From the NCBI RefSeq assembly GCF_018524365.1, contig NZ_JAEKFT010000007.1:124001-188000 (forward strand): DNA of 64,000 bases, written 5' to 3'. The notes beneath the pieces are model-generated. The model made no database searches and was not told the DNA's origin. It worked only from the letters and a program-made list of their open reading frames with translations. Every line of letters starts with the position of its first letter. Position 1 is the first letter of the stretch. Below, piece by piece: positions 27,589 through 47,037 of the stretch. The position numbers and the translations under genes are program-made. The DNA is from Denitromonas iodatirespirans (GTDB lineage: Bacteria; Pseudomonadota; Gammaproteobacteria; Burkholderiales; Rhodocyclaceae).

Positions 27589-27602
27589 TTGACGTGGATC
27601 AA
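27589..27602. promoter_or_regulatory. FNR-type box of hemN
   Basis: TTGAC-GTGG-ATCAA lies between hemN and fnr. For hemN the box centre is about 41.5 bp upstream of a predicted start near 27554, which leaves a 20-nt leader. The -10 match (GATCGT) is weak. For fnr the same geometry would put the start on its own Shine-Dalgarno, so activation of hemN, perhaps with repression of fnr, is the better reading. Confidence 0.8.
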
Positions 27603-27646: not shown

Positions 27647-28390
27647 ATGCCAAATCGGGCCGTCGTGCCAATTACCGTCGAAGGCCTGAAAACGGCTTGT
27701 TCCCAATGCAACCTGCAGGAGCTGTGCCTGCCCTACGGCATGAGCGAAGGCGACATCAACCAGCTCGATGCGCTGGTCGGCGCGCGCCGCAAGGTCAAGC
27801 GCCATCAGCACCTGTATCGCGCCGGCGACACCTTCGAGTCGATCTACGCCGTGCGCACCGGTTCGTTCAAGACCGACGTACTGCTCGAGGACGGCCGCGA
27901 GCAGGTCACCGGTTTCCAGATGTCCGGCGAGATCATCGGGCTCGACGGCATCAGCACCGATGCGCACAGCTGTAACGCCGTCGCCCTCGAGGACAGCGAG
28001 GTGTGCGTGATCCCCTTCGCCAACCTGGAGGAAATCTCCCGTGAAATCGGCTCGCTGCAGCACCAGTTCCACAAGGTGATGAGCCGCGAGATCGTCCGCG
28101 ACCATGGCGTGATGATGCTGCTCGGCTCGATGCGTGCCGAAGAGCGCCTGGCGGCCTTCCTGATCAACATGTCGCAGCGCTTCACCGCCCGTGGTTTCTC
28201 GGCGGCGGAGTTTCACCTGCGCATGACGCGCGAAGAAATCGGCTCCTACCTGGGCCTCAAGCTGGAGACGGTATCGCGCGCCTTCTCGCGCTTCCAGGAA
28301 AACGAGCTCATCACGGTGCAGCAAAAACACATCCGCATCCGCGACATCGACGGCCTCAAGGCCCTGCTCAGCCACCTGCCCAACGTCTGA
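27647..28390 (+). CDS. fnr: FNR-type oxygen-sensing transcriptional regulator
   Basis: 247-aa FNR/ANR protein. Four cysteines that bind the oxygen-labile 4Fe-4S cluster are present: the N-terminal CSQCNLQELC group and the distal one in TDAHSCNAV. The jelly-roll sensor domain and dimer helix (MSREIVRDHGVMMLLGSMRAEERL) follow. The HTH recognition helix LETVSRAFSRFQ has the E-x2-S-R pattern that reads TTGAT half-sites. The ATG has AAGGAGA upstream. It is the obvious candidate to bind the five boxes in this window. It ends 0 bp from the convergent hemerythrin gene. Confidence 0.95.
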   Translation: MPNRAVVPITVEGLKTACSQCNLQELCLPYGMSEGDINQLDALVGARRKVKRHQHLYRAGDTFESIYAVRTGSFKTDVLLEDGREQVTGFQMSGEIIGLDGISTDAHSCNAVALEDSEVCVIPFANLEEISREIGSLQHQFHKVMSREIVRDHGVMMLLGSMRAEERLAAFLINMSQRFTARGFSAAEFHLRMTREEIGSYLGLKLETVSRAFSRFQENELITVQQKHIRIRDIDGLKALLSHLPNV

Positions 28391-32241: not shown

Positions 32242-32282
32242 ATTGTCTCGCACCGGCATTGAACCGCATTGACACGCATCAA
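32242..32282 (-). promoter_or_regulatory. FNR-dependent promoter of the hemerythrin operon
   Basis: Box TTGAT-GCGT-GTCAA on the minus strand (32282-32269), with a -10-like GACAAT at 32247-32242. The spacing equals that at ccoN and the candidate sRNA. The predicted start is near 32234, with a 34-nt leader to the ATG at 32200. Confidence 0.8.
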
Positions 32283-34119: not shown

Positions 34120-34190
34120 ATTGTGCGCGGCTCGCCCACGCGGTATTTGATCGGTATCAATCATGGTTTTCGTCAGGCGACGACTATAAT
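34120..34190. promoter_or_regulatory. shared FNR-dependent promoters of phaC and usp
   Basis: The perfect box TTGAT-CGGT-ATCAA (34147-34160) lies between the divergent genes. Toward usp a perfect TATAAT occurs at 34185-34190, placing the box near -43. Toward phaC CACAAT (34125-34120) sits in the same register as in the ccoN and hemerythrin promoters, with a start near 34112. One box can therefore serve both directions. Confidence 0.82.
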
Positions 34191-34749: not shown

Positions 34750-35340
34750 ATGTTCAACGCAGCCATCCACATCATCCAGGAAGAACACCGTTCGCTGGCG
34801 GCGATCGTGCATGGCCTGAAATACCTGGTCAATGACGCCCGCAGCAACGGCGCCCAGGCCAACTTCAAGGTCCTGCGGGCCATGCTCCACTACATCGACA
34901 ACTTCCCCGAACGGCTTCATCACCCCAAGGAAGATGCCTATCTGTTCGCCCACCTGCTCAAGCGCACCCACGAAGCCGATGCGGTGATCGACGAACTCAA
35001 GGCACAGCATGAGGACGGTGCCCGACTGGTCAGTGCCCTGCACACCCGGCTGGATGCCTACGAGGCCGGCGAATCGGGTGGCTTGGCGGCGTTCGGCGAG
35101 GCAGTCGACACGTTTGCCGATGCCATGTGGCAGCACATGGCCCTGGAAGAGAAGGTCCTGCTGCCGCTGGCCCGGCAACACCTGACGGACGCCGACTGGG
35201 TGGAGATCGGCCAGGCCTTCGGCGACAACGGCGATCCGCGCTTCAGCGCCGATGCCGAGAACGAATTCAGCACGCTGTTTTCACGCATCGTGACGATCGC
35301 CCCGCCGCCGATCGGCGTGGGCCCGTCGTCAGGCCGCTAG
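34750..35340 (+). CDS. hemerythrin-domain protein (196 aa)
   Basis: Third hemerythrin-like gene of the island, and the longest. Ligand motifs in order are QEEHRSL, HHPKEDAYLFAHL, AQHEDGARL and QHMALEEKVLLPLARQH. A C-terminal tail of about 40 residues past the fourth helix distinguishes it from the other two. It lies 85 bp after usp on the same strand. I see no FNR box of its own, so it may be read through from usp. It is convergent with the end of the cco cluster, with 14 bp between stops. Confidence 0.86.
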   Translation: MFNAAIHIIQEEHRSLAAIVHGLKYLVNDARSNGAQANFKVLRAMLHYIDNFPERLHHPKEDAYLFAHLLKRTHEADAVIDELKAQHEDGARLVSALHTRLDAYEAGESGGLAAFGEAVDTFADAMWQHMALEEKVLLPLARQHLTDADWVEIGQAFGDNGDPRFSADAENEFSTLFSRIVTIAPPPIGVGPSSGR

Positions 35341-39610: not shown

Positions 39611-41035
39611 TTAGGCGTGTGCGGCCTGCGGCGCGACCACCGGTGCGCTGTAGGCTTTCTGACCAGCGATCGTCTTCACCATGTTGTAGAACATGAGAAG
39701 CATGCCGCCGAGGAAGAGCACACCGCCAAGCAGACGGATCGACCAGAACGGATAACTGGCTTTCACCGACTCGACGAAGGAGTAGGTCAGCGTGCCGTCC
39801 GGGTTGGTGGCGCGCCACATCAGACCCTGCATCACACCGGCGATCCACATCGAGGCGATGTACAGCACCACGCCGATGGTGGCGATCCAGAAGTGGGTCG
39901 TGATCAGCTTGGTCGAGTACATCTCGGTCTTGCCGTACATACGTGGCAGCAGGTAGTAGATGGCGCCGATCGACACCATGGCCACCCAGCCCAGCGCGCC
40001 GGAGTGCACATGGCCGACCGTCCAGTCGGTGTAGTGCGACAGCGCATTGACGGTCTTCACCGACATCATCGGACCTTCGAAGGTCGACATGCCGTAGAAG
40101 GACAACGAGGTGATCAGGAACTTGAGGATCGGATCGGTGCGCAGCTTATGCCAGGCGCCCGACAGGGTCATGATGCCGTTGATCATGCCGCCCCAGGACG
40201 GCGCCAGCAGAATCAGCGAGAAGATCATGCCGACCGACTGGGTCCAGTCCGGCAGCGCGGTGTAGTGCAGGTGGTGCGGACCCGCCCACATGTAGGTGAA
40301 GATCAGGGCCCAGAAGTGGACCACCGACAGACGATAGGAATAGACCGGGCGATCAGCCTGCTTCGGCACGAAGTAGTACATCATGCCCAGGAAGCCGGCG
40401 GTCAGGAAGAAGCCCACCGCGTTGTGGCCGTACCACCACTGGATCATCGCGTCCTGCACACCGGCATAGGCCGAGTAGGACTTGGTCAGGCTGACCGGAA
40501 TCGCCGCGCTATTGACGATGTGCAGCAGGGCCACGGCGATGATGAAGGCTCCGTAGAACCAGTTGGCCACATAGATATGCGAGGTCTTGCGCTTGGCAAT
40601 GGTGCCGAAGAAGACGATGGCGTAGGAGACCCACACGACGGCGATCAGGATGTCGATCGGCCACTCGAGCTCGGCGTATTCCTTGCTGGTGGTGATGCCC
40701 AACGGCAAGGTGACCGCGGCGAGCACGATGATCAGCTGCCAGCCCCAGAACGTAAACGACGCCAGCTTGGGCGCGAACAAGGGTACGTGGTTCGTACGCT
40801 GCACCACATAGTAGGACGTCGCGAACAACGCACAGCCACCAAAGGCAAAAATCACTGCGTTGGTATGAAGCGGGCGCAGCCGACCGAAATGGAACCACTC
40901 GGCGAAGTTCAGTTCGGGCCATACGAGCTGTGCTGCGACGATCACGCCGACCAGCATGCCCACAATACCCCACACCACCGTCATGATGGCGAACTGGCGC
41001 ACGACTTTATAGTTGTAAGTCGCTTGCGATTGCAT
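39611..41035 (-). CDS. ccoN: cbb3-type cytochrome c oxidase subunit I
   Basis: 474-aa catalytic subunit with twelve membrane helices holding low-spin heme b and the heme b3-CuB centre. Histidine motifs seen are [29 protein letters not shown] and THFWIATIG. It reduces O2 to water with high affinity. The ATG at 41035 is chosen: AGAGG lies 8 nt upstream, and the GTG at 41044 would overlap that site. An FNR box with -10 lies about 105 bp upstream, giving induction at low oxygen. Confidence 0.97.
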
Positions 41036-41107
41036 GTGAGTCACCTCTTAGAATAAAAACCTGGAACCCCCCTGCACCGCGACATATCGCCGCGATGCTC
41101 CGGACGA

Positions 41108-41213: not shown

Positions 41214-41241
41214 AAAAAAAAGGGTGCGTTTTCACGCACCC
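41214..41241 (-). terminator. strong intrinsic terminator between ccoS and ccoN
   Basis: On the minus strand GGGTGCGT-GAAA-ACGCACCC (8-bp stem, GNRA loop; 41241-41222) is followed at once by eight T (41221-41214). It ends either the ccoIS transcript, the small RNA proposed here, or both. Confidence 0.92.
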
Positions 41242-41319
41242 CCAACCCCAACAGAGAGACTTGAAACTGTTCGATTGGTCCGGAATCGCCGCTTCGTTGC
41301 GGCCCCGTGCCAATAACCA
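41214..41319 (-). ncRNA. candidate FNR-activated small RNA
   Basis: Predicted ~106-nt transcript starting near 41319 from the FNR box/-10 at 41367-41327. The 5' part can fold: ATTGG (41314-41310) pairs with CCAAT (41278-41274), enclosing a GCCGC-AACGAA-GCGGC hairpin (41303-41288). An unpaired, CU- then GU-rich stretch follows (about 41273-41243, containing CAAGTCTCTCTGTTGG). The terminator with eight U closes it. This 5' stem, open seed, U-tailed terminator layout is typical of Hfq-type sRNAs. No protein-coding sense is apparent. The alternative is an untranslated tail of the ccoIS operon. Confidence 0.6.
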
Positions 41320-41326
41320 TGTGCGT

Positions 41327-41367
41327 AGTATGACTTTCTCAAAACTGTTGGCGTTGACATGGATCAA
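41327..41367 (-). promoter_or_regulatory. FNR-type promoter downstream of ccoS
   Basis: Box TTGAT-CCAT-GTCAA on the minus strand (41367-41354) with a -10-like CATACT (41332-41327), in the same register as the ccoN promoter. No start codon with a ribosome site follows before the terminator, so it should drive a non-coding transcript. Confidence 0.75.
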
Positions 41368-41399: not shown

Positions 41400-41624
41400 T
41401 CAGCGCGGTTCGGTGTCGCTGTCCGGCGTTTTCCCGGCATCGGGCTGAGCAGATTTTTCCTTGGCGGTCGGGGACGCCGGCGGACGATCGTCGTCCATCA
41501 TCATTCGGTAGGCCGGCCCCTCAAGGTCGTCGAACTGACCCGAGCGCACCGACCACCAGAACAGCAGGCCGATCACGAACACCAGCACGACAGAGAGCGG
41601 AATCAGCAGGTACAGGCTATCCAT
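41400..41624 (-). CDS. ccoS: cbb3-oxidase maturation protein CcoS
   Basis: 74-aa single-pass membrane protein (MDSLYLLIPLSVVLVFVIGL) with the conserved FWWSVRSGQFDDLEGPAYRM motif and a hydrophilic tail. CcoS is needed to insert heme b and CuB into CcoN. The ATG at 41624 is 2 bp past the ccoI stop codon, implying coupled translation. The tail (~30 residues) is longer than in many CcoS proteins. Confidence 0.93.
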   Translation of the reverse strand: MDSLYLLIPLSVVLVFVIGLLFWWSVRSGQFDDLEGPAYRMMMDDDRPPASPTAKEKSAQPDAGKTPDSDTEPR

Positions 41625-41626
41625 GA

Positions 41627-44092
41627 TTACTCGCGGTGCGGTCGGACTCGTTGCAGCCGCAAGGCATTGAGGACGACGAAGAGAGAACTGGCGGACATTC
41701 CGATGCCGGCCATCCAGGGCGTCACCCAGCCGGCGACGGCCAGCGGGATCGCCACAAAATTGTAGCCGAAGGACCAGAACAGGTTCTGGCGGATGATCTT
41801 GAGCGTGCGCCGCGCCAACGCGATACCGTGGGTCAGCGCCATCAACTGGCCGCCGAGCAAAACGATGTCGGCATGCGTGCGCGCCAACTCCGTGCCCTCG
41901 CCCATCGCCACCGACACATGCGCCTTGGCCAGCACCGGCGCGTCGTTGACCCCGTCGCCGACCATCGCCACCACCCGGCCCTGCGCCTGCAAGGCCTCGA
42001 TGGCGGCGTGTTTGTCCTGCGGCGACAGGCCGCCCTGGTAGCGACCGACGCCCAGCGCATCGGCAAACGCCTGCACGGTTGCCGGCGCATCGCCACTGAG
42101 GATGCCGATCTCCAGGCCATGCGTCCTCATCCATTGCATGGCGTCGCGGGCGTGCGGGCGCGTCACGTCCTCCAGCAGCAGCACTGCCAGCCAACGGCCT
42201 TCGCCCCCCAGGAAGACGCGGGTCTGGATCCCCCCGTCGGCCTCGCGCAACGCGACCGGAGCCGTCATGCCCACCAGTTCCGCGACGAAATCCTCGCGCC
42301 CGATGCGATAGCGCACACCGTCGACCACCCCCTCGACGCCCCGCCCGGTCTCGGCCATGACGGCCATCGCCTGCTTGCGAACGCCCGTCGAGGCCGCCCG
42401 CACGCCAGAGGCAATGGCGTGTTCCGAGCCCTGCTCGAGCGCCGCCGCGATCGCCAGCGCCACGCTGCCATCGACGCCCTCGGCGCTCACCACGCGGGAC
42501 ACGTGCACCGCGCCCTCGGTGAGCGTGCCGGTCTTGTCGAACATGATCGTGTCGGCATTGGCCAGCGCCTCGATGGCATGGCCGCGGGTCACCAGCACGC
42601 CCAGCCGGGCCATGGCGTCCGAGGACACCGTCAGCGCGGCCGGCGTGGCCAGCGAAAGGGCGCAGGGGCAGCTGACCACCAGCACCGAGACGAAGATCCA
42701 CAAGGCCCGACTCGGGTCGACCAGATACCAGCCGATGCCGGCGGACACGGCCAGCACGATCAGCGCAGCGATGAACCAGGCGGCGATCCGGTCGGCCTGG
42801 CGCATCAGACGCGGCTTTTCGGTGGCGGCCCGCTCCATCAGGCGCAGGATGGCCGCCAAACGGGTCGCATCGCCCACCTGCCGGATCTCGACGACCATCG
42901 GACTGGCCACGTTCAGGCTGCCGCCGGTGACGGCATCGCCGATCGTCTTGGGTATCGGCCGGCTCTCGCCGGTGAGCAGCGACTCGTCCGCCGCGCTGCC
43001 CCCGTCGACGACCACACCGTCGGCCGGAATCGCCTCGCCGGGCTTGACCCGCACCCGGTCGCCGGGCACCAGGGTCGACACCGGCACCCGTTCGTCCGAC
43101 CCATCGGCCAGCACCCGTTCGGCAAATGCCGGCAGCACCTTGCCCAGGGCCTCGACGCCGCGCACCGCCTTCTGCCGCGCGATCATCTCGAGATAGCGCC
43201 CGCACAGCAGGAAAAACACGAACATGGTCACCGAGTCGAAATACACCTCGCCCGAGGCCACCACCGTGGCATAGCAGCTGGCAGCGAAGGCGCTGCCCAC
43301 GCCGAGCGCCACCGGCACGTCCATGCCCAGGCGCCGCAGGCGGATGTCGCGCCAGGCGCGCTGGAAGAAGGGCGCAGCCGAATACAGCACCACCGGCACG
43401 GTCAGCACCAGGCTGGCCCAGCGCAGCAGCTGGTCGATATCGGCGGTCATGTCGCCATCGCCGGCCACATAGGCGGGGATGGCGTACATCATCACCTGCA
43501 TCATGCCGAAGCCGGCCACGAACAGGCGCCACAGCGCGCTGCGCCGTTCGCGCCGGGCGATCTGCTCGGAGCGCGCCTCGTCATAGGGATAGGCGCGGTA
43601 GCCGATGGCCTGAATCGCCGCGAGGATGTCCGACAACTTGACCCGCTCGGCGTCCCAGCGCACCCGGGCGCGGCGCGTCGCGTAGTTGATCTCGATCGCC
43701 TCGACGCCGGGCAGACGCGCCACATGCTGCTCGTTGAGCCACACGCAGGCGGCACAGGTGATGCCCTCGAGCAAGAGCGAGGCCTCGCGGCTGTTCGCGC
43801 CGAGCGGGCGCACGAAGGATTTCTGGAAATCCGGATGATCGAACAGACCGAGCTCGCCGAGCGCCTCGGGCAAGGCCTCCTTGCGCGACTCGGGCAAGGC
43901 GTCGCGATGGCGGTAGTAGTCGGTCAAGCCATTGTCGACAATCGCCTGCGCCACCGCCTGGCAGCCGGCGCAGCACATCTGCCGGCTGACGCCGTCGATC
44001 ACCACGTCGTAGCGAATCGCCTCGGTCGCGGGCAGCCCGCAGTGGTAACACTCGGGGCTGTCGGCTTCGGCAGCCAGGGCTTGATCAGACAC
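41627..44092 (-). CDS. ccoI: cbb3-oxidase copper-supply P1B-type ATPase
   Basis: 821-aa CcoI/FixI pump exporting Cu(I) for CuB assembly. The extra N-terminal metal domain has CYHCGLP and CCAGCQAV, followed by one HMA domain with GITCAAC, eight helices, the CPC motif [19 protein letters not shown] and GDGVNDAPVL. The YN and MSASS residues of helices 7-8 give P1B-1 specificity. The N-terminal cysteine-rich extension and coupling to ccoS separate it from the detoxifying CopA at 22-24 kb. Confidence 0.95.
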   Translation of the reverse strand: MSDQALAAEADSPECYHCGLPATEAIRYDVVIDGVSRQMCCAGCQAVAQAIVDNGLTDYYRHRDALPESRKEALPEALGELGLFDHPDFQKSFVRPLGANSREASLLLEGITCAACVWLNEQHVARLPGVEAIEINYATRRARVRWDAERVKLSDILAAIQAIGYRAYPYDEARSEQIARRERRSALWRLFVAGFGMMQVMMYAIPAYVAGDGDMTADIDQLLRWASLVLTVPVVLYSAAPFFQRAWRDIRLRRLGMDVPVALGVGSAFAASCYATVVASGEVYFDSVTMFVFFLLCGRYLEMIARQKAVRGVEALGKVLPAFAERVLADGSDERVPVSTLVPGDRVRVKPGEAIPADGVVVDGGSAADESLLTGESRPIPKTIGDAVTGGSLNVASPMVVEIRQVGDATRLAAILRLMERAATEKPRLMRQADRIAAWFIAALIVLAVSAGIGWYLVDPSRALWIFVSVLVVSCPCALSLATPAALTVSSDAMARLGVLVTRGHAIEALANADTIMFDKTGTLTEGAVHVSRVVSAEGVDGSVALAIAAALEQGSEHAIASGVRAASTGVRKQAMAVMAETGRGVEGVVDGVRYRIGREDFVAELVGMTAPVALREADGGIQTRVFLGGEGRWLAVLLLEDVTRPHARDAMQWMRTHGLEIGILSGDAPATVQAFADALGVGRYQGGLSPQDKHAAIEALQAQGRVVAMVGDGVNDAPVLAKAHVSVAMGEGTELARTHADIVLLGGQLMALTHGIALARRTLKIIRQNLFWSFGYNFVAIPLAVAGWVTPWMAGIGMSASSLFVVLNALRLQRVRPHRE

Positions 44093-46735: not shown

Positions 46736-46790
46736 CTGCAAGATCCCGCCGGGCGCGGCGCTCTGCTAGACTGGCGGCCGTTTTTCATGT

Positions 46791-46980
46791 CGCTTTCCGG
46801 TGCCCGTCGCAGGACGGGAGAATCGGGAATGCGGTGAGGCGCCGGGGCCTGCCCCGGCCGCCGATTCCGCAACGTGCCCAACGCTGTGAGGGGGATGTCT
46901 GTCGCCATATGCCACTGCCCGATCCGGGCGGGAAGGCGCGGCAGACGCCGAACCCGAGTCAGAAGACCGGCCGGAAAGCG
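46791..46980 (+). promoter_or_regulatory. cobalamin riboswitch upstream of bluB
   Basis: The P1 stem is a perfect 10-bp pair, CGCTTTCCGG (46791-46800) with CCGGAAAGCG (46971-46980). Core elements in order: GGGAATGCGGTGAGG (46825-46839), TTCCGCAACG, GCCACTG (46911-46917), GGGAAGG (46930-46936) and the B12 box AGTCAGAAGACCGGCC (46957-46972). Downstream, CTCGGCAG/CTGCCGAG (46986-46993, 47004-47011) forms a hairpin without a U-tract before the AAGGGG ribosome site, suggesting control of translation. Adenosylcobalamin should shut off bluB. Confidence 0.93.
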
Positions 46981-47037
46981 TTTACCTCGGCAGTCAGGCC
47001 CGGCTGCCGAGCCATGCGCTTGAATCAAGGGGACTCC

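Follow-up and report, generated by a model that had tools for sequence, protein, structure and literature searches.

A predicted FNR-driven, base-pairing small RNA between ccoS and ccoN

The gap between ccoS and ccoN probably encodes a small RNA (sRNA) that acts in trans by base pairing and has its own class II FNR promoter. The RNA would be transcribed at low oxygen, and its conserved core would block the translation of mRNAs that carry CCCCAACCCCAACAGAGA-type sites. A probability of roughly 0.8 is given to this reading, for which promoter elements, a terminator, conservation, independence of the neighbouring genes and an excess of complementary sites at gene starts argue at the level of sequence. 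An earlier note on this DNA had proposed an FNR-activated sRNA at this place, and the conserved FNR box, the register of the -10 element, the core and the independence of the locus support that proposal. The term “window” is used here for the whole stretch of 64,000 nucleotides that was analysed; its relevant features are collected in Table 1.

In the proposed mechanism, a fall in oxygen would allow FNR to activate transcription of the sRNA from the class II promoter. The core, 5′-UCUCUGUUGGGGUUGGGG-3′, would then pair with CCCCAACCCCAACAGAGA-like sequence over or beside the Shine–Dalgarno region of the target mRNA, presumably with the assistance of Hfq. This pairing would occlude the ribosome binding site and so repress translation. 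The targets appear to vary by genus, and many of them would share a role in oxygen-using catabolism, oxidative defence, or electron and sulfur transfer.

Table 1. Coordinates of the predicted sRNA, its elements and the genes discussed (positions in the window)
Feature	Position	Strand	Basis
Predicted sRNA, ~106 nt	41214..41319	-	Predicted start 48 nt from the first base of the FNR box, which is centred at -41.5
Variable 5′ domain	41262..41319	-	Hairpin in predicted fold; sequence kept within the genus only
Conserved core UCUCUGUUGGGGUUGGGG, predicted target-pairing region	41240..41257	-	Invariance in alignment A1; complementarity to translation initiation regions
Intrinsic terminator (8-bp stem, GAAA loop, eight U)	41214..41241	-	Sequence, scan, alignment, model R1
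FNR-type box TTGATCCATGTCAA, putative class II sRNA promoter	41354..41367	-	Motif match
-10 element CATACT	41327..41332	-	Starts +35 from the first base of FNR box TTGATCCATGTCAA
ccoN's own FNR box TTGACCTGTATCAA	41135..41148	-	Separate from the sRNA box
ccoS, upstream neighbour	41400..41624	-	Position after ccoI and sequence recognition
ccoI, upstream neighbour	41627..44092	-	Sequence recognition
ccoN, downstream neighbour	39611..41044	-	Sequence recognition
fnr, likely activator	27647..28390	+	NCBIfam NF008365 Fnr, 255.3 bits (cut-off 228); Cys motif, E-SR helix

Promoter, terminator and fold

The FNR-box scan placed TTGATCCATGTCAA at 41367-41354 on the minus strand, with a single mismatch to TTGATNNNNATCAA. 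The ccoN promoter is built in the same way, as TTGACCTGTATCAA (41148-41135) is followed by TATCCT, likewise at +35 from the start of the box. Both the box and the CATACT in the register of the ccoN promoter had been pointed out in the earlier note and were confirmed. In 113 of 124 loci the best -10-like hexamer begins at +35 or +36 from the box, as is typical of class II FNR promoters. Of the 126 distinct loci that could be assessed, 124 have a perfect TTGAYN4RTCAA box in the 160 nt upstream of the core; L025 and L048 are the exceptions. Elsewhere in the same loci such boxes number 10 per 773,344 bases, or 0.0021 expected per 160-base stretch. The unit therefore appears to have a promoter of its own, with the FNR box at about -41.5 from the predicted start, and a -10 element.

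The terminator stem is formed by GGGTGCGT/ACGCACCC (8 bp) and is followed by eight T at 41221-41214 on the minus strand; its description in the earlier note, an 8-bp stem with a GAAA loop and eight U, was accurate in every detail. The terminator scan places it at 41243-41220, and model R1 matches 41214-41261 with 70.6 bits. The U tail would be compatible with Hfq binding. The fold of 41322-41205 reaches -44.9, compared with -36.2 (sd 3.5) for shuffled sequences (z -2.45). A scan of 10 kb of single sequence gave 6 terminator-like sites against 5.4 expected, with no promoter-like call at the sRNA site. As this promoter and terminator scan performed no better than on shuffles, it was dropped as evidence; the unit is held to be non-random because it is conserved.

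The predicted RNA is 65-157 nt long over 124 loci, with a median of 78 nt. Folding pairs parts of the core, and the mean unpaired probability in the predicted folds is high at the core UGUU and UU and low at the runs of G. The layout proposed at the outset, a folded 5′ domain followed by a CU/GU-rich stretch, held for the hairpin and for the stretch itself. The 5′ domain was rejected as a conserved structure because its conservation ends at the genus. The constrained part is the CU/GU-rich stretch at 41257-41240 together with the terminator.

Conservation and distribution

A BLASTN search with 166 bases against 61 genomes found the unit in 26 of 37 genomes of the same family and in none of 24 from other families, and the alignments beyond the genus cover the 3′ end only. 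An exact scan of named genomes with the core pattern gave 106 loci, for a combined set of 132, or 127 after five duplicates were dropped. Because the pattern covers no forms other than four-G and GGGGGGCG, the list of named taxa is incomplete, and as these loci were chosen by their core, its invariance among them stems partly from selection. The sets obtained by BLASTN and with the covariance model carry less of this bias. The covariance search suggested in the earlier note, run on the core and terminator, matched 202 of 247 family genomes and 54 of 62 genera. Five of the 202 matches are weak (E 5e-5 to 6e-4) and four genera depend on these alone; the other 45 genomes gave no match.

In an alignment of 36 sequences picked from 85 distinct ones, TCTCTGTTGGGGTT is invariant, and the first 14 columns of the core are invariant in alignment A1. 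The terminator loop differs in length and sequence among the 36, with indels, and the conservation is of the nucleotide level. Named genomes with the sRNA include Azonexus, Dechloromonas, Azospira, Thauera and Accumulibacter, and the unit is present in the record of Azospira oryzae DSM 21223 (L067); the home family comprises denitrifiers, aromatic degraders and wastewater bacteria. Two records titled Comamonadaceae and Desulfobulbus (L082 and L102) also carry the sRNA and FNR box, and are possibly mislabelled bins.

Among 300 genomes of the order, all R1 matches above 60 bits belong to the home family, with at most 27 bits elsewhere. In 370 genomes of the class, only the genome under study exceeded 31.2 bits. 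Homologues outside the family were rejected on this ground, the class and order searches having yielded just matches of 21-31 bits. Of 32 outside-family loci, just one, the AniS-like L214, carried an FNR box in the 150 nt upstream of its match. Rfam at its gathering threshold has no family at the sRNA site. In searches of the openly accessible literature, no title or abstract opening describes the unit.

Neighbouring genes and coding capacity

The reading frames that flank the sRNA are taken to be ccoS, ccoI and ccoN from recognition of their sequences. Of 117 assessable loci, 112 have ccoN on the same strand within 700 nt downstream, and 111 of 122 have ccoS or ccoI upstream of the unit. The five loci that have no ccoN within this distance (L018, L038, L051, L070 and L109) keep both the core and the FNR box. 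ccoN lies about 0.74 kb away at L051 and 2.4 kb away at L038, and was not found in the flank examined at L018, L070 and L109. The core is also kept in all 11 loci where ccoS and ccoI were not found upstream, 10 of which have the box. Among the 16 loci that miss a nearby ccoN or ccoS/ccoI, L048 alone is without a perfect box. This persistence speaks against the unit being purely a ccoIS 3′ UTR or a ccoN leader.

In the first of these readings, the locus only ends the ccoI-ccoS transcript as its 3′ UTR and terminator, and an sRNA might be processed from it. The unit does lie directly downstream of ccoS on the same strand, and its terminator would end ccoS transcripts too. Such a 3′ UTR would nevertheless leave unaccounted for a consensus FNR box and -10 element upstream of the core in nearly all loci, besides the loci where the unit survives apart from ccoS and ccoI. 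Most of the core, moreover, falls outside the helix of the terminator, and sites complementary to it occur at the starts of other genes. The earlier note had stated that conservation of the terminator, but not of the FNR box and 5′ domain, would favour the 3′ UTR. The box proved to be kept and the core near-invariant, and the loss beyond the genus concerns the 5′ domain. The 3′ UTR reading is considered very unlikely. A similarly slight chance is given to a leader or attenuator of ccoNOQP, in which transcripts started at the first FNR box would either terminate or read through into ccoN. The position on the same strand, about 170 nt upstream of ccoN, is in its favour, and readthrough would be compatible with the sequence. 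Against it, 115 of 126 loci have a second perfect FNR box, fit to serve ccoN, no more than 260 nt downstream of the core, and the unit is kept where ccoN is not nearby. As the 5′ domain is unconserved, no conserved antiterminator is apparent, and a leader would not explain the complementary sites at other genes. At L017, three perfect FNR boxes, 52 nt apart, lie between the core and ccoN.

The early statement that no gene follows the promoter is upheld, as the list of open reading frames ahead of ccoN has mechanical ones on the opposite strand only, and no conserved frame was found across 124 loci. A frame that opens at the ATG at 41320 passes through the core and beyond the terminator, which could be taken to suggest that the unit encodes a small protein. 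It is not a shared frame, however: 35 of the 124 loci have no ATG or GTG between the start and the core, in 7 further loci no frame from such a codon extends to the core, and the remaining 82 differ among themselves in frame. With conservation at the nucleotide level and indels in the terminator loop, a small protein is the least credible of the alternatives and is given next to no weight. The unit thus shows both an intrinsic terminator with a U run and the lack of a conserved reading frame that are expected of an FNR-activated sRNA.

Complementary sites at gene starts

The core is complementary to Shine–Dalgarno regions, and this genome has 8 non-self matches to its complement (18-mer, at most 3 mismatches). 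Across 10 congeneric genomes, a plausible start follows after 2-25 nt at 16 of 42 distinct sites, compared with 7 of 73 for a control permutation that retains the Shine–Dalgarno-like AACAGAGA (Fisher 5e-4). Five settings of this position test gave p values of 1.5e-4 to 2.5e-3, for one permutation and with the settings varied after a first classifier. That classifier, which gave 11/42 vs 4/73, missed clear starts such as that of a cytochrome c-like gene, and for this reason five settings are reported. The raw count of 18-mer complements in the same 10 genomes gave no excess, with 45 non-self sites vs 36 for the reversed and 75 for the permuted core. The signal is in the position of the sites and not in their number.

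In the 247 family genomes, the pattern CCCCAACAGAG-N2..16-ATG was found at 46 distinct non-self sites, compared with 12 for the reversed pattern, a crude control (binomial p 4e-6). The search returned 69 rows, comprising 2 repeats, 21 at the sRNA locus and these 46. The six bases 5′ of the seed, which the search did not demand, match at five or more positions at 11 of 45 sites, where about 0.5 would be expected under an assumed base composition. As five of these 11 belong to tusE in a single genus, the sites are not independent. A search with a 10-base seed and ATG in 37 genomes gave mostly noise and few leads. Seed matches also occur in G104, G161 and G200, whose sRNA match is weak or absent, and none of them precedes a recognisable gene. 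Pairing energy alone is weak evidence, since among 115 background gene starts 11 attain -24 kcal/mol, 5 attain -28 and 1 attains -35; these starts were drawn from the window and from four stretches of 20 kb selected because they surround candidate sites, and the -35 case is the hydrolase candidate. The pairing region suggested by complementarity, 41260-41240, is close to the seed of 41273-41243 that had been put forward beforehand. On these counts, the core appears complementary to gene starts beyond chance.

It may be asked whether the sRNA is real and its core acts mainly on protein or on ribosomes, as a decoy resembling the anti-Shine–Dalgarno sequence, with the complementarity at gene starts being incidental. 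UCUCUCU does resemble the anti-Shine–Dalgarno sequence, and many gene starts pair moderately with the core. The control that preserves the Shine–Dalgarno-like motif nonetheless gives fewer gene-start sites, and at several tusE and sodC starts the complementarity extends 5′ of the Shine–Dalgarno sequence over CCCCAACCCC, reaching about 20 nt. The decoy is thought unlikely, if less so than the other alternatives, and base pairing with mRNAs is preferred.

Predicted targets

In this genome, predicted sites lie 7-10 nt before the starts of BoxA (TIGR03224, 734 bits), a fumarylacetoacetate hydrolase-family protein and a small CxxCH protein that resembles cytochrome c and has no NCBIfam or Pfam match. 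Two further sites are located 34-36 nt before a 2Fe-2S protein and MinC. Of the 46 sites from the seed-and-ATG search, 28 precede a gene with a family match or one that shares the N-terminus of a scanned gene. The repeated targets are TusE/DsrC (six), HppD, or 4-hydroxyphenylpyruvate dioxygenase (four), Cu/Zn SOD (three), ErpA (two) and allantoicase (two). Single cases are PobA, an MmoC/BenC-type reductase, proA, lipoamide dehydrogenase, a DsrE-family protein, a DoxX/HvfX-family protein, an MSMEG_0572-family protein, an alpha/beta hydrolase, a branched-chain amino acid-binding protein, a Ycf48-like protein and YeiH; the matches of the reductase, the lipoamide dehydrogenase (cut at the locus end), the binding protein, the Ycf48-like protein and YeiH lie below the NCBIfam curated cut-offs. 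A sarcosine oxidase-like protein is also among the predicted targets; together with BoxA, HppD, PobA, the reductase, SodC, TusE/DsrC, ErpA and the cytochrome c-like protein, it represents the theme of oxygen use, oxidative defence, and electron and sulfur transfer. Allantoicase, proA, YeiH, aspA and MinC are predicted targets that have no link with oxygen.

Orthologues of boxA, fetched by protein and not by site, are present in 21 of 120 genomes. Nine of them, from five genera, pair with the core at -24 to -38 kcal/mol, and at most 12 of 300 shuffled cores pair as well; all nine genomes carry the sRNA. Among the 12 genomes where boxA has no strong site, the sRNA match is absent in G015 and G026, weaker in G137 and strong in nine. 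Orthologues of the cytochrome c-like protein were found in 36 of 120 genomes, at 30 loci of which 20 could be placed. The site is clear or similar in seven of these 20: it is clear in four g1 rows and similar in g58, g10 and g79, the g10 case having originally been found through its site. The site is missing from g67, where the sRNA is present, and from g6, where any sRNA match is weak. The target sites appear to be real as a class and yet to turn over between genera.

Sites resembling CCCCAACAGAGC occur before a YeiH-family gene at L274 (G006), L233 (G003) and L244 (G001), in three copies with a 31-nt spacing in G006 and in two copies in G003. It is possible that one YeiH-family mRNA carries multiple sites for the sRNA. 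At L426 (G133), the antisense motif is repeated at greater length, as CCCCAACCCCCAACCCCAACAGAGGGG, and no clear gene follows.

A wider reading is judged slightly better than an even bet: that the sRNA constitutes a family-wide, post-transcriptional oxygen switch of Rhodocyclaceae type, in which one FNR-driven RNA beside the genes of the high-affinity oxidase silences ring cleavage and oxidative defence. BoxA, HppD, PobA and oxygenase reductases would be silenced as oxygen falls, through an invariant core and genus-specific targets that turn over quickly. No match obtained points to homology with FnrS; were this reading correct, the two RNAs would have evolved convergently, and the switch between aerobic and anaerobic life in aromatic degraders would have a layer that had gone unrecognised. 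With a conserved FNR sRNA, a defined core and predicted oxygenase targets, this post-transcriptional layer can be tested directly. In the parts of a systems paper on Aromatoleum that were available, small RNAs figure only as possible further participants in the control of denitrification genes (PMC9765128).

Comparison with known small RNAs

FnrS of Escherichia coli and Salmonella, for which Rfam holds a model, is absent from the gathering-level Rfam matches in the window and from nine sub-threshold matches. The best explanation is that the unit would work like enterobacterial FnrS and matches no known family. Like FnrS, the unit would be activated by FNR, and it is predicted to repress functions that are dispensable without oxygen, as is reported for FnrS. 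The overproduction of FnrS lowers more than 30 mRNAs of aerobic respiration, oxidative stress and central metabolism, according to the sections available of PMC8139620. The targets predicted here differ, being oxygenases and functions of aromatic catabolism, and the unit offers an independent comparison for FnrS.

AniS of Neisseria is described, in the available portion of PMC4423775, as a betaproteobacterial sRNA that is controlled by FNR and made in oxygen limitation. The sRNA would share FNR control with AniS (RF02274) and is built similarly, with a GU-rich linker and a GC terminator; the score of 17.1 bits against a gathering score of 50 sets the sRNA apart as a non-member. Two loci in another family, L214 (G625) and L264 (G738), resemble the AniS consensus, with an FNR box 131 nt upstream of the L214 match. 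They match R1 with 21-22 bits via the 3′ part only, and the core UCUCUGUUGGGG is absent. SorY of Rhodobacter (RF02651) has CUCCCUGUUGG beside its terminator, which resembles the core, but the sRNA scores 28.2 bits against a gathering score of 111 and is not a member. We know of no FNR link for SorY.

S17 of Bordetella pertussis, a betaproteobacterial sRNA, has a short invariant region and targets predicted at gene starts, and is said to be conserved in Aromatoleum and AP021857.1, as far as the available text of PMC11722255 goes. The first two traits are likenesses to the sRNA described here. The same text places S17 beside coq7, with a Bvg-linked sigma-A promoter and processing by RNase E (PMC11722255), in which it differs. 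S17 is also reported there across Burkholderiales, whereas the sRNA core gives strong matches in just one family among the 300 order genomes; the two are set apart by this description and not by sequence.

FNR regulator and further elements in the window

An FNR-type box with one mismatch at 27589-27602 lies directly ahead of fnr on the plus strand, which suggests autoregulation of fnr. A mismatch-free TTGATN4ATCAA box at 34147-34160 precedes a gene at 34750 that is presumably hemerythrin-like from a reading of its sequence, and a one-mismatch box is located at 32269-32282. These two boxes are likely to be further FNR promoters. The only gathering-level Rfam matches in the whole window are tRNA and a cobalamin riboswitch at 46781-46989 (+, 118.6 bits). 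The reading frame that overlaps this riboswitch runs on to 47790 and presumably encodes a BluB-like protein.
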